From Schizochytrium sp. TIO01 (Eukaryota > Sar > Bigyra > Thraustochytrida > Thraustochytriidae), in NCBI GenBank assembly GCA_004764695.1, contig SMSO01000005.1, positions 949,501 to 1,013,500 on the forward strand: a stretch of DNA of 64,000 nt, read 5' to 3'. The notes under the pieces are model-generated. The model was not told the DNA's origin. It worked only from the letters and a program-made list of their open reading frames with translations, and searched no databases. Each line of letters begins with the position of its first letter. Positions within the stretch are counted from its first letter, which is position 1. The translations under genes were made by a program, and so were the position numbers. Positions 51,779 to 56,446 of the stretch are shown one piece after another.

Positions 51779-52274
51779 TTTTCCAATAGGATCCTCTTGG
51801 TTTGTAAGAGCTATAGCTCAGTCTTCAACAAAACTCAGTTCCTGAACGGGACAGTAGTTCTATACAATACGTCTCCCCAAACTCTTTCACCCGTGGTGCG
51901 TGAAAGTAGATACCTAGAAGAACTGGCACTCAAGAGCAGGTAACGATTGTCCTCAATAGTTTCCCTATCTCTGTCTCTGAGCTTGCTAGTCAAAGATAGT
52001 GAAATTGTTGAATAGATCACTACTAAGCTGGCAAGAAACCAATCAAAGTCGCGCTCCTGCTGGAGTGCTCACGAATTGTAATCAGAACTCAAACGAGGAT
52101 CGTAGCCGCCGCGATCTTTTAACTGCTTGAACTCAACAGACTTGTATTAGGATTGTATAGTGAACTCACTATGTGGCAGTACCTGCTAATAGGTTATTTG
52201 GGAGATTTGTACTCTTAGATTTTAAACTACAAAATTTGCAAAACTTGCATTTCATAGAAGGAGCTAAGACTCCA
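51779..52274. other. spacer between carboxypeptidase and Fanzor, both on the minus strand
   Basis: About 0.5 kb. On the minus strand it runs from the 3' side of the Fanzor gene to the 5' leader of the carboxypeptidase. It should contain the transposon right end and the carboxypeptidase promoter. A small hairpin (CTTTCAC/GTGAAAG) lies at 51884-51906. The exact transposon border is not visible, as expected for IS607 elements, which lack terminal inverted repeats. Confidence 0.5.
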
Positions 52275-52345
52275 TCACGAGCTAGTTAGACTAACCCGCG
52301 ACTCAATGAAATGATTTTTTTTTAAAATCATGTCCTTGGATAGGT
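52240..52345 (-). ncRNA. candidate guide-RNA (omega/fRNA) scaffold region
   Basis: Fanzor/TnpB guide RNAs overlap the 3' end of the nuclease gene and continue into the transposon end. In that place this sequence can form an 8-bp hairpin (arms 52311-52318 and 52324-52331, loop of 5) and an 8-bp pairing of 52248-52255 with 52306-52313. Two smaller hairpins lie between them (GTTAG/CTAAC and GGAG/CTCC). Position is the main argument; the extents are approximate and the transcript is not demonstrated. Confidence 0.28.
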
Positions 52346-53786
52346 AGCGTAAAAGGATGCCTCTGGCGGCATGGACATCACGGTCTGCTACATGGTTGCA
52401 CTTGGGATTAGGGCATTGGAAAACCTTGGATGCGCCGAGTTTATGGTGGAGGGTACCGCACTCATTGCATGTTTTTGAAGTGTAGCTCTCTTGGCAAAGA
52501 ACAAGCTTGCACCACGGGAACATCTCAGCCTTGTGAACGAGAGCCTGACGGAACCCAAAATGGCACCAACGACACATCATTCGAACAGACTTCTTGGATA
52601 TCCGTCGCTCCATCTTCCTACTCATCTTAGAGGTTTCGAATTTAGGCAAGAGAATAACACGATAGTTTTCACAAAGCCAAAGTGCGAGCTTGCGATGAAT
52701 CTCAGTGGTCTTGTTCTTGATCTTGAGTTGGGCGCGATAGAATGCGCGCTTCAAGGGGGTGTTGAAATTGTCTTTATCACTGGATGCAGTTTTCTTATTA
52801 TTTTCTTGAGCTTTATCAATCCTGCTCTGGATCTTATCAACGCGGCGACAGAGATAGAATATGGTTCTAAAATCTTTCCCTGTGCCCCATTCAATGGCGC
52901 GGCCATCAGCGTCATACATCGTCTGAAACGAGCGAACACCTGGATCTAGAGCAATGACACCATGGTGCGCCTTGGGTGCCTGGTCCATTGGACGCTTTTT
53001 TTCTTCTCGTAAGAAGCAGAAGTAGACATGCCCAAGGCGATTCATTTGCACACGCATGGCGTTCGAAATCTGGTCGGGGAGCTTTTCTTTACGTGTTCGG
53101 ATTTTTTTTAGAAAGCCGGAGGTCTTTGATTTCTTCAAATTCCAGGTACGTGCATTCACTTCGAAAATCTGTGATTCATCACGCTTGGTCCGAAACTTAT
53201 AAAAAGATTGCTCATGAACTTTCTTTTGTACAGCGAGTTCTTCGTTTTTGGCTCGTCCCGAGTTAATAGCCTTGAAGAAATCCAGAATCCCGGAATCACG
53301 GATAGCCTGTGGGACCTCGAGAACCCATTCAGGAGCACCATTCCTTTCTTTAGATCGAACGGCTTTCTTTTCTCCATAGAGGGCCCCATGTGTTTTTGGA
53401 TTCCCATCTTCATCTACTAAAACCTGCTTCGTCTTGGAATCCTTTTTGATGCACGCTTCTTGATGCAATTTGATGGCTTCTTCCTCGCCCTTCGCCACGT
53501 CTCGATGAAACGCAACGCCAGTATTGCAGGCTCTTCTAGTGACACCAAACCATTTAAGCAATTGTGTACACTGATCTTTAGTAGGGTATACCCTAACCTT
53601 TCTGGCACGGACAAGGTCATATTCTTTCTTGGTGGTCTTGCGCGCCTTCGTGCGAGTTCGCTTCTTCCTTGCTGCGTCGTCGCCGTCTATTTTGCGCTGC
53701 TCGTTTTCCGTGATGCGATGCCACAAAGACGGTGATAATTCCGAGGAGGTCTTTGGTGAAGGTGTCTGAGTCTCCGGCATGTGCAT
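52275..53786 (-). CDS. Fanzor/TnpB-family RNA-guided nuclease
   Basis: 503 residues if started at the ATG at 53786 (MHMPETQ); ATGs at 53780 and 53813 are alternatives. The frame is open further, to 54275, but that stretch is antisense-free shadow of tnpA. A basic cluster at 40-54 (RKKRTRTKARKTTKK) looks like a nuclear localisation signal. The helix-turn-helix-like region starts RKVRVYPTKDQCTQLLKWFG. RuvC-I is IALDPGVRSF (Asp281). At the usual RuvC-II Glu position there is LLPKFETSKM (Pro381), and a Glu appears later in CQESYTSKTC (Glu433). The zinc finger is C440-x2-C443 and C458-x4-C463. RuvC-III is ADRDVHAARG (Asp470). The order matches the D-...-TS-x-x-C4-RD Fanzor signature. Such enzymes cut DNA guided by an RNA that overlaps the gene's 3' end. 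All three acidic residues are present. Confidence 0.92.
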   Translation of the reverse strand: MHMPETQTPSPKTSSELSPSLWHRITENEQRKIDGDDAARKKRTRTKARKTTKKEYDLVRARKVRVYPTKDQCTQLLKWFGVTRRACNTGVAFHRDVAKGEEEAIKLHQEACIKKDSKTKQVLVDEDGNPKTHGALYGEKKAVRSKERNGAPEWVLEVPQAIRDSGILDFFKAINSGRAKNEELAVQKKVHEQSFYKFRTKRDESQIFEVNARTWNLKKSKTSGFLKKIRTRKEKLPDQISNAMRVQMNRLGHVYFCFLREEKKRPMDQAPKAHHGVIALDPGVRSFQTMYDADGRAIEWGTGKDFRTIFYLCRRVDKIQSRIDKAQENNKKTASSDKDNFNTPLKRAFYRAQLKIKNKTTEIHRKLALWLCENYRVILLPKFETSKMSRKMERRISKKSVRMMCRWCHFGFRQALVHKAEMFPWCKLVLCQESYTSKTCNECGTLHHKLGASKVFQCPNPKCNHVADRDVHAARGILLRYLSKDMILKKNHFIESRVSLTSS

Positions 53787-54315
53787 CTTGGCCGTGTACC
53801 ACGAGTTTGACATTTTTTCTTTCGAAAAGGTGTTCCAGGAGGTCGACTGCGATTCGCGCAAGTCGGTCGCGGTGCATGACCACAACTTGGCCGATTCCTC
53901 CGCGGTCGCAGGCGTCCAGTAGGGAGCACAGGCCTTGGCGTTTGAAATTGACCCCACTACCGATGTCTTTGTAGACGGCGGAAGCATCTGGGTAGGCGCG
54001 CTGGAGATCGCCAATCTGGCGTTCGAGGTCCTCCTTTTGCTTGGCCGAGGACACTCTGGCGTAGATAACGGTACATCCAGAGTTGCGTTGCTCGCGGCCG
54101 GTGGAACCGAGATCAAAGATGCGCTCAACATCGTCGCTGGCGTAGATGCGCTTTCCTCCGGGGAAGCGCGCGCAGCGCACGCATCCGCCATCGGCCCAGC
54201 CCCGAAGGGCGCTTGCTGAGACCCCAAACTTCCGGTGAAAGAACTTTGCTGGTTTGTATTCGAGGTTTGCTCCACTTGCAGTGTTTGGAGCTTGACGGTT
54301 CCTCGGCCTCCCCAT
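53617..54315 (-). CDS. tnpA: IS607-type serine recombinase (TnpA)
   Basis: 232 residues from the ATG at 54315. A MerR-like helix-turn-helix occupies about 20-70 (FFHRKFGVSASALRGW, GGKRIYASDDVERIF). The small serine-recombinase catalytic domain follows: VIYARVSSAKQKEDLERQIG with nucleophile Ser89, DIGSGVNFKRQGL, and VVVMHRDRLAR. The C-terminus (DLLGIITVFVASHHGKR) is the usual IS607 ending, extended by a basic tail that overlaps the nuclease gene. HTH-first order is diagnostic for IS607 rather than other resolvases. It cuts and joins the transposon ends without a DDE transposase. Its coding sequence overlaps the Fanzor frame by about 170 bases. No disruption was seen, so the protein looks functional. 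In eukaryotes and large DNA viruses such genes accompany TnpB/Fanzor2. Confidence 0.93.
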   Translation of the reverse strand: MGRPRNRQAPNTASGANLEYKPAKFFHRKFGVSASALRGWADGGCVRCARFPGGKRIYASDDVERIFDLGSTGREQRNSGCTVIYARVSSAKQKEDLERQIGDLQRAYPDASAVYKDIGSGVNFKRQGLCSLLDACDRGGIGQVVVMHRDRLARIAVDLLEHLFERKNVKLVVHGQDAHAGDSDTFTKDLLGIITVFVASHHGKRAAQNRRRRRSKEEANSHEGAQDHQERI

Positions 54316-56446
54316 TTTCTTACCTAACCTCCACTTCTTATCAATAACCTAAATAAACATAATATATGATTAATATGAAATATAAGTTATCGAACTTTTA
54401 ACGGTTTTTGTTTTTGTTTTTTGTTTTTCCCTTATATGATCAATACTGATAGGGTCAGGTAATAATATTTCAATATGTTTAACAAAGGGGTGTTAGTTCA
54501 TTTGACAACTTCATTTTGTTTACAAAGTAAATCCCAACACAGCGCTCACTTAGATTTTGTCGATATGCAAACAATCTCCATACACAAAGGGGACGCCTTT
54601 CCAGTGTTAAACGTATGTAAATATCTGCGCCTAGCATCTGTATAAGTTGTTTCCTCAAAATATCCTGCCTTTTGCATTCTAATAAGCTATTCGCCCTCTT
54701 GAAGTGTATGTGAACATAAGTCTTATACCTAGGTGATCAAAAGGGGATTGTATATGAATCATATAATTTTCTTTATATCATTTTCGCTGTGTTGGGTTAT
54801 ATTCATTGCAAGATGCCTTGTATAAGTTTGAAATAATGTTGATGATCACACTTCCTCATAAAAGAATCCACGCCAGATCAGTGATATTTTCCTGGCTTCG
54901 GAAATATATCAACACGTCGCACAGGCCACGAGCCAATAGCAAGCACTTGAATCAAGCTTACGAAAATTTCCAGGCTCCAATGTTTAATCAAATATCCATC
55001 TGATTTGTGGCTTCAACTTTTGTTTGTAGCTGCAAACCCGCGTTTGAGATTGCTGTGTCCATACTCATACTGACGATGCGTTGCTGCCTTCACCCTCTGC
55101 ATGGAGTATCACTGCAACAAATCTCCATGTTTCGCTAATTGTTGGTGACTGTTTCACTCTATTGCAAAGCCATCAATGAACACAACTTTATACAAACGTC
55201 AAGTAAACAAATCAAAATATCAAGATCTCAGACACAGCTGTTTCGCAGCCATCCTCTAGTTTCCAAAGACTTTAATGTGCAAGCCTGAATTTTTATATCT
55301 CTGGTCAAGGGATTTATAGTCAGCCTTTATTCTGAGTTGGAAATCTATGGATTGAGAAGATCTTATCCACTCGACGAAATTCGCAGTAATTAGTTTTGCC
55401 TCTTTCTTCACTGCCACACAAAAGGCTTCCTGTATTTTTAGCATAGCCGAACATATTCGACAACTATGCTTGCTTGCTCGGACCGTCTGTGCGATTGCCT
55501 AGGTTCACAGAATTCGTGTTTGCCGTATTAGATTTAAGTAATTCTATACCTTTTTTAAAGTTTACACCTTAGTTCGATCCTTGCACCCCCTGATTTATGA
55601 ATCTAAAAGCCTAGAAATGCAATAGAATTCCCAGCGAAATATTCGTTCCACCTGGGTAGCTAGCAACACTGGGATATGAGAGTGCTATCATTGAACGCTG
55701 TAGATCTTGAAACCGAGCCTTTGATAAATAGGCTCAATTAAAGTCCTACTTGTTATAATTCTATAATATTCTCTGTTGCAGTTCAGTGCTGATTTGCTTT
55801 GTTTAGCGGATTCTGGGTATTATTCTCATTTTGAGACAAAAAACTGATAATGATTATAATTCTAAAATTACCCCACCCTTTTCAAATGCAATTAGTACAA
55901 GCAGGTAGTCTTGTAAAAGTCACCCGCATGATGACAAGAGGTTGTTTCCAAAATATTTCGCAAAAGCACAAACAGTGAATAGTTTTGTGCATTAAAAACA
56001 GTGCATTGCATGGACTCAGATTTAACTTATCAAGAACAAATCTTGACAAGAAAAGCTAAGCGCTATTCGACCTTGCGAGAATAGGTCGCCATAAGAATAA
56101 AATATGTGTATACCAGGTATACAACCTCATATCTGGCAAACATGACAAATTAAAACATTTGATGCTGATTATCTCGAATCTAATACCATCAAAACATGAT
56201 ATATTCTTTTAGACTTTTTGAGATTATGCTAAATATTTCCTTCTTCGAGTGAAAAGTTGATTAACCCTCGACCCAAATCACATTTGAACAATCTACGAGT
56301 TCAGAGGTACCATAGCTTATCATTTTCTTTTTCCTGTTAAAAATAAAGGGAATAACACTAGGCCCAGACACTTGCGTCTCAATTATGCATAACTCATGTA
56401 TTAAACTAAACTTCGTTTGAATTAAAAAAAGTATCGTAAGAATCAA
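54316..56446. other. 2.1-kb AT-rich intergenic region
   Basis: No gene was recognised. The first part should contain the left end of the IS607-type element and its promoter; a T/G-rich stretch (TTTTTGTTTTTTG) lies near 54407-54427. The remainder is AT-rich with short, unsupported frames. Confidence 0.55.

Follow-up and report, generated by a model that had tools for sequence, protein, structure and literature searches.

How much of the nuclease gene of an IS607-type transposon can lie inside the gene of its own transposase? The question is raised by a 64,000-nucleotide stretch of Schizochytrium sp. TIO01 (contig SMSO01000005.1, positions 949,501 to 1,013,500), referred to here as the window, in which an IS607-Fanzor2 element occupies positions 52212..54447, as delimited by copy alignment, comparison of the ends and the empty sites of a sister copy (L008). 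All features described below lie on the minus strand. A preliminary description had read two overlapping open reading frames (ORFs) on this strand, a serine recombinase (53617-54315) and a TnpB-like nuclease (52275-53786). Both are present as described and so is their overlap of 170 bp, the extent of which was understated: in the window copy, the nuclease frame is open over the whole recombinase gene (682 codons). We regard it as highly probable that the element is a recently mobile IS607-Fanzor2 transposon with nested genes, in which the recombinase gene also encodes, in the alternate frame, a module of the nuclease. The element itself, its Fanzor2 type, the relocated glutamate, the copies and the empty sites are of an already-known kind; the new part is the extent of the recombinase-nuclease overlap, with its probable dual coding.

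The longer nuclease frame runs from 54191, the first ATG after that of the recombinase, to 52275 and comprises 638 residues, with 54131, 53987 and 53813 as alternative starts. The frame is open over the entire recombinase gene in most of the young copies, of which the genome holds at least 17. Many of the 120 homologs listed out of 1072 are 600-700 residues long, and the extension of the 14 homologs inspected is mostly the same as that of the window protein. It carries nearly invariant W, S and L, followed by S-W, in rows that were partly chosen. Because the 49 of the 120 homologs that were aligned had been picked for length and coverage, rows with the extension were favoured. Addition of 35 loci to this first alignment gave 85 rows, numbered +135 relative to the 503-residue nuclease as first read; L178 and L201, the two overlaps lacking the motif SW[FYW], are not among them, and the invariance of S-W in these rows is therefore partly due to choice, with W, S and L reaching at least 90%. 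The conserved part, here called the module (PYW...S..LW and NSWY), corresponds to 53772..53939, residues 85-140 of the 638-residue frame, and lies inside the recombinase gene.

The DNA of relatives, consisting of 52 IMG/VR loci and 80 prokaryotic loci, mainly from cyanobacteria, has one and the same frame offset at every place where the nuclease ORF reaches into the recombinase ORF upstream of it. Most of these overlaps span 350-700 nt; exceptions are L146 and L149, fragmentary nuclease ORFs without overlap, L124 with 23 nt and a few loci with 104-212 nt, and L118/L119 additionally carry downstream fragments in another frame. Viral contigs scanned with P0101 alone gave 10 stretches, none of which was confirmed. 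A search with the module alone matched, among 143 candidates, only P0001, a transcript-derived MMETSP protein that is 99.2% identical over 601 residues to the genomic copy L009, so that the module is recognised through its full-length relatives.

An open frame upstream of the nuclease could be an accident of the recombinase codons, the nuclease starting at 53786 and comprising 503 residues. For the window copy, synonymous shuffling gives such an open frame with P = 0.0104, which at a single locus could be chance. The stop deficit is, however, repeated in diverged loci. After scoring of 94 loci and reduction to 41 representatives below 70% identity, the nuclease frame over the recombinase contains 83 stops as opposed to 227.1 expected from synonymous shuffles, with 22 of the 83 coming from L124, an ordinary TnpB locus; the third frame contains 512 stops, with 551.5 expected. 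No such deficit was found in ordinary IS607 elements, represented by 15 recombinase ORFs in 14 plasmid loci that were chosen, avoiding plasmids of pathogens, from 40 listed of 205 matching records: their nuclease-equivalent frame holds 138 stops, with 143.7 expected, and no ORF is stop-free. The alternate-frame peptide is also conserved beyond what shuffling produces. For this test, a set of 40 was used (the 41 representatives without L124 and L146, plus the window), and the real peptide scored above all 100 synonymous shuffles in 40/40 cases against a leave-one-out profile. With training rows limited to less than 45% identity, which left enough rows for 29 of the 40, it scored above all 60 shuffles in 29/29. 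In contrast, when 220 nuclease codons outside the overlap were tested in these loci, the outcome was 0/40 and 1/29 at the nuclease-frame offset. The motif SW[FYW] is present in 38 of the 40 overlaps, compared with 3.2 expected.

Among the 17 young copies, the recombinase has a synonymous divergence of 0.037, compared with 0.084 for the nuclease alone. At four-fold sites, divergence amounts to 0.103 over the first 29 codons of the recombinase and to 0.00-0.08 over the later ones, compared with 0.063-0.185 in the nuclease. Taken alone, the lower synonymous divergence fits dual coding as well as a constraint on the recombinase gene at the level of the nucleic acid, such as a nuclease promoter, an RNA structure or recombinase binding sites, to which the signal in the third frame (see below) would also correspond. 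We nevertheless consider such a constraint very unlikely as the explanation, as it would neither keep one frame low in stops at a constant offset nor preserve a tryptophan/serine motif where the recombinase frame is interrupted. Exactly this was found in Fanzor-like loci without a detected recombinase, which keep the module motif in 14/14 cases, with 5-31 stops in the first 230 codons of the recombinase frame. These 14 were obtained from 20 listed loci by removing the ordinary TnpB loci L121, L122 and L129-L131 as well as L190 at a contig end, and they include near-copies (L160/L161 and L187/L200/L205). In the opposite direction, the R-D-R motif of the recombinase is compatible with the other frame in 43 of 50 homolog extensions, as compared with 5.1% of shuffled sequences; the seven extensions without this capacity include the transcript-derived P0104.

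Several results weigh against dual coding. The shuffles are also surpassed in the third frame of the recombinase (40/40, median z 4.78; 25/29, z 3.86), a signal that we attribute, with a caveat, to the fixation of third positions. In the nuclease core, offset 2 exceeds the shuffles in 7/40 and 4/29 cases, and the other frame of the ordinary IS607 control has 174 stops, with 207.1 expected. Two of the 40 overlaps (L178 and L201) lack SW[FYW], and one recombinase bin, with a four-fold divergence of 0.08, falls inside the nuclease range. Within the genome, the part of the nuclease frame that covers the recombinase has a ratio of non-synonymous to synonymous polymorphism (pN/pS) of 1.11, compared with 1.59 for the third frame; in the 170-bp overlap the ratio is 0.68. 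By itself, this ratio indicates no purifying selection in the upstream nuclease frame and speaks for a start at 53786, although overlapping frames bias it upward. With regard to structure, residues 1-84 of the longest frame have a predicted local distance difference test (pLDDT) score below 50, and the model of a cyanobacterial protein (L132), with a mean pLDDT of 66.5, is weak in the module.

In the AlphaFold model of the window protein, the module is confidently predicted to be folded, with pLDDT values by tens of 93, 87, 70, 77, 91 and 59 for residues 91-150. The structural alignment with the mimivirus Fanzor2 (9b0l), of which the first and last residues were considered, begins at model residue 88 and chain residue 53, within the module. 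For the listed TnpB structures, the alignment with the model does not start before residue 191-193, so the core may suffice for a nuclease starting at 53786; for most other families it starts at about residue 190, and such a start point is no proof that the module is absent from them. Given the module alignment with 9b0l, the conservation, the stop deficit, the retention of the motif where no recombinase was detected and the predicted fold, the 503-residue start is probably too short, and an accidentally open frame appears very improbable to us. Strong comparative evidence instead points to a conserved N-terminal nuclease module that is dual-coded with the transposase across the clade.

The two frames could also be connected by a recombinase-nuclease fusion through -1 frameshifting at the A-run GAAAGAAAAAATG (about 53811-53823), where a heptamer of the window copy, A-AAA-AAT, is positioned so that a -1 shift would lead into the nuclease frame. 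One A is missing from the run in the older copies L018, L020 and L021, and the recombinase frame of L018 continues into the nuclease. However, the run contains a T or C in 7 of 22 copy rows, the corresponding residues are variable in protein homologs, and a shift at this place would lose the conserved motifs upstream of it. We rejected this fusion, which we consider highly improbable, since the A-run is not conserved. In the 22 rows, at about 53814-53819 of the window, the T occurs in L006, L009, L012, L013, L014 and L016 and the C in L022; the change to T creates a stop in the recombinase frame and only replaces Glu by Asp in the nuclease frame.

If the module is dual-coded, its translation requires a start inside the recombinase gene. 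The ATG codons on the presumed transcript follow each other at 54360 (a 3-codon ORF), 54315 (recombinase) and 54191 (nuclease frame), with no ATG in any frame between the last two, a layout that suits leaky scanning. The recombinase would be made from the ATG at 54315, while some ribosomes would pass it and start at one of the nuclease-frame ATGs at 54191, 54131 or 53987, yielding the extended nuclease. The strong-looking context at the recombinase ATG, AAGAAAATGGG, disfavours easy leaky scanning, and the ATG at 54191 is an ACG in 7 of 22 copy rows; the one at 54131 is kept in 21 and the one at 53987 in 20 of the 22. In L082, L085, L187 and P0104, which have no detected recombinase overlap, a Met lies 15-21 residues before the P-F/Y-W/Y motif, a spacing that fits a start at 53987 (21 residues). 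Among the relatives, 70 of 91 rows were examined for starts backed by a Shine-Dalgarno sequence, and no consistent pattern emerged. Together with a guide RNA from the right end of the element, the nuclease would cut the restored empty site beside a CAG-like motif, which would favour retention or copying of the element, and a single DNA stretch would constrain both proteins in the clade.

As to its origin, we lean slightly towards the view that the Fanzor-specific N-terminal module arose by overprinting on an IS607 serine recombinase gene, before or during the cyanobacterial pro-Fanzor stage. Since then, the pair would have been dual-coded, and lineages without the recombinase (solo nucleases, perhaps Fanzor1) would have kept the module and been freed to join other transposons. 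Overprinting would then have built a structured part of a eukaryotic RNA-guided nuclease. The dual coding, if true, offers an origin for the N-terminal extension and suggests why this one IS607 lineage retained transposase and nuclease together. It would also be a large natural case of overlapping coding that spans bacteria, viral contigs and protists. Where the annotation of a Fanzor2 or pro-Fanzor protein begins at a downstream start, the conserved module would be lacking, which would matter for the choice of nuclease constructs. The host, with its at least 17 young copies and probably belonging to a cultured genus, would allow these points to be tested.

In the available parts of the literature, Fanzor2 is marked by DPG in RuvC-I, an alternative Glu just before the zinc finger, an IS607 recombinase and a eukaryotic host (Yoon et al., 2023, PMC10711439). 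The window element shares with the Fanzor2 elements in IS607 described there and by Bao and Jurka (2013, PMC3627910) the DPG, the alternative Glu, the zinc ribbon and the HTH core (helix-turn-helix), as well as the upstream recombinase and the absence of terminal repeats; it may also share the lack of target duplication and a right-end RNA with pseudoknot-like pairing. It differs in its large overlap and probably dual-coded N-terminal module, which the available parts of these two papers do not describe. The cyanobacterial pro-Fanzor TnpB proteins have the same active-site signature (PMC10711439, as far as available), and we found the overlapping frame and the NSW[FY] module in them as well; in contrast, their hosts are prokaryotic, and the bacterial rows are 27-31% identical to the window protein. 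Mimivirus Fanzor2 L79 (9b0l) is the best match in both sequence and structure, but at 19% identity. Ordinary IS607 elements with canonical TnpB have the same order of serine recombinase and nuclease on one strand, and their ORFs "often overlap" according to the accessible part of a study in eLife (2018, PMC6188088). Among the 10 plasmid loci with both genes annotated, the overlap is 7-29 nt in seven, and a gap of 32-52 nt separates the genes in three; unlike in the window element, the nuclease frame is not kept open over the recombinase, and five ordinary TnpB loci have no NSW motif in the first 260 residues. For NlovFz2 and MmeFz2, N-terminal disordered regions of 96 and 61 residues relative to ISDra2 TnpB are called unique to each in the available text (Saito et al., 2023, PMC10432273). 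The present extension is set apart from that description by its conserved module and its overlap with the recombinase gene. A literature search gave nothing on Fanzor in thraustochytrids or on a Fanzor N-terminal extension; 'thraustochytr' and 'Aurantiochytrium' are absent from the text of PMC3627910, and 'Aurantiochytrium' from that of PMC10711439. The Fanzor, IS607 and TnpB literature, with partial coverage of subscription journals, contained only general remarks on overlapping IS607 ORFs and no statement on dual coding of a nuclease domain, and priority of the finding is not established.

The nuclease as first read (52275..53786, 503 residues) comprises the core of HTH/wedge, RuvC and zinc ribbon. 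The profile search suggested in the preliminary description placed it in two TnpB-type Pfam families above cutoff, PF07282 (48.8 bits, cutoff 26.3) and PF12323 (26 bits, cutoff 21), with matches below cutoff to PF01385 (16.5 bits) and NF040570 guided_TnpB (86.1 bits, cutoff 100); among sequences with solved structures, mimivirus L79 is nearest (E 1e-16). The active-site residues had been read correctly, and all are invariant in the 85 rows: RuvC-I Asp281 (codon 52944..52946), Pro381 in LLPKF at the canonical position of the RuvC-II Glu, the alternative RuvC-II Glu433 in QESYTSKTC (52488..52490) and RuvC-III Asp470 (52377..52379). Around Asp281 the sequence reads LDPGVRS, with D and G invariant and P present in at least 90% of the rows. 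The shifted catalytic Glu, proposed earlier as a reported Fanzor trait, agrees with the Ealt of Yoon et al. (2023, PMC10711439) in the part available. In an IQ-TREE tree of 53 rows, which contains no named Fanzor2 reference, the window nuclease falls with homologs inside a starred set of 10; a long branch separates five of six plasmid TnpB proteins from the window side, and the sixth, L218, lies inside on a very long branch. With DPG, the alternative Glu, the IS607 recombinase, a eukaryotic host, many copies and a transcript-derived family protein, there is support for assigning the nuclease to Fanzor2 and its IS607 element to a thraustochytrid-type host. RNA-guided DNA cleavage, a mark of Fanzor2, is a prediction for this nuclease. 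In the same tree, the nucleases of L080 (IMG/VR) and L136 (Lyngbya) are very close, with branches of about 0.05 each, pointing to a recent exchange or a cyanobacterial contig within the viral set.

The recombinase (53617..54315, 232 residues) is intact and matches the whole-length model NF033518 of IS607 transposases with 143 bits (cutoff 110) and PF00239 with 73.5 bits, above cutoff; a MerR_1 match of 19 bits remains under its cutoff of 21.6. Taken together, the matches agree with the IS607 architecture, in which a MerR-type HTH precedes the serine recombinase catalytic domain. In five copies at different sites (L009, L012, L014, L016 and L048), about 295 extra bases follow recombinase codon ~33, and the insert contains short TAACC repeats in the four of the five copies that provided its sequence. 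Since it is common to copies at different sites, this recombinase-broken form has apparently been mobilised in trans. An intron was considered, but the four sequences have no GT at the start of the insert, which is treated as an insertion; by eye, a GT-AG pair a few bases off its edges would preserve the frame.

The genome search for copies proposed earlier gave at least 98 nuclease and at least 154 recombinase match rows, with several rows per copy, and many copies are decayed. The recombinase is intact in nine of the 17 young copies and the nuclease uninterrupted in 14, and the closest copies (L010/L011) are 99.77% identical. In pairwise comparisons among the 17, the recombinase has a pN/pS of 0.25; the nuclease has 0.32 past the overlap and 0.14 within codons 270-480. 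The near-identical copies, the intact genes, these ratios and the transcript-derived P0001 show that the family is recently mobile and transcribed. For the window element, the earlier wording "potentially active" is plausible, given two intact genes, purifying selection and near-identical copies at different sites.

The setting of the element is eukaryotic. The host genome comprises 64,063,054 bases in 37 contigs, and the adjoining carboxypeptidase matches an MMETSP0961 protein with 100% identity over 662 residues. This protein carries the label 'Auranti...', which makes Aurantiochytrium the very probable host genus; the taxid in its header resolves to a fungus and is discounted. Bacterial contamination of the assembly, which the cyanobacterial IS607 as the closest annotated arrangement might suggest, is extremely improbable in view of this host protein alongside, the copies on many large contigs of the 64-Mb genome with nested old copies, and the transcript-derived family protein.

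By alignment of the copies, inspected by eye, the right end of the element lies at 52212 (CTAAGAG), and a left-flank CAG is found at 54448-54446 in the window copy and in most other copies. The conserved left-end sequence starts at about 54411, with a variable stretch between it and the CAG. The base in the right flank is A or T in 16/16 copies tallied. Empty sites were found for the sister copy L008, namely two paralogs without the element that are 83-84% identical and continuous through the junction and show no target duplication. The element ends suggest AG as the crossover core of L008, yet both paralogous empty sites read AA there; IS607 itself uses a GG core, according to the part available of PMC6188088 (eLife, 2018). 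For the window copy, the search on the 54600-55600 side yielded repeats of 66-76% and no empty site, and the flanks of 14 further copies gave junction-spanning sites from L008 only.

The last 129 bases (52212..52340) contain a predicted scaffold of a right-end guide RNA (reRNA/omegaRNA) with hairpins and a fold z-score of -4.77 compared with shuffles; the guide would follow it in the right flank. In most of 19 copies, base pairing is possible between a hairpin loop, UCUUAG, and the CUAAGA at the terminus, a pairing that resembles the pseudoknot of Yoon et al. (2023, PMC10711439), as far as that text was available. The consensus structure of the 19 copies has a double-sided change at one of 38 pairs, and covariation is thus weak. 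Rfam gave no match above gathering, only RUF1 with 21.3 bits (gathering 70). At 52275-52310, the early TAA of most young copies is absent from the window copy and its sister L015, which adds about 15 residues to the nuclease and extends it into the predicted guide-RNA region.

At the left end, the window copy (54412-54448) has a longer stretch between the CAG and (A/T)CAAAAA than other copies, in which it measures from a few to about 20 nt. This stretch differs even among nearly identical copies, and a simple 2-bp crossover does not explain it. Older relatives, with segments of about 69-75% identity, adjoin or enclose the young copies L002 and L011, and short remnants consisting only of ends were found near L015.

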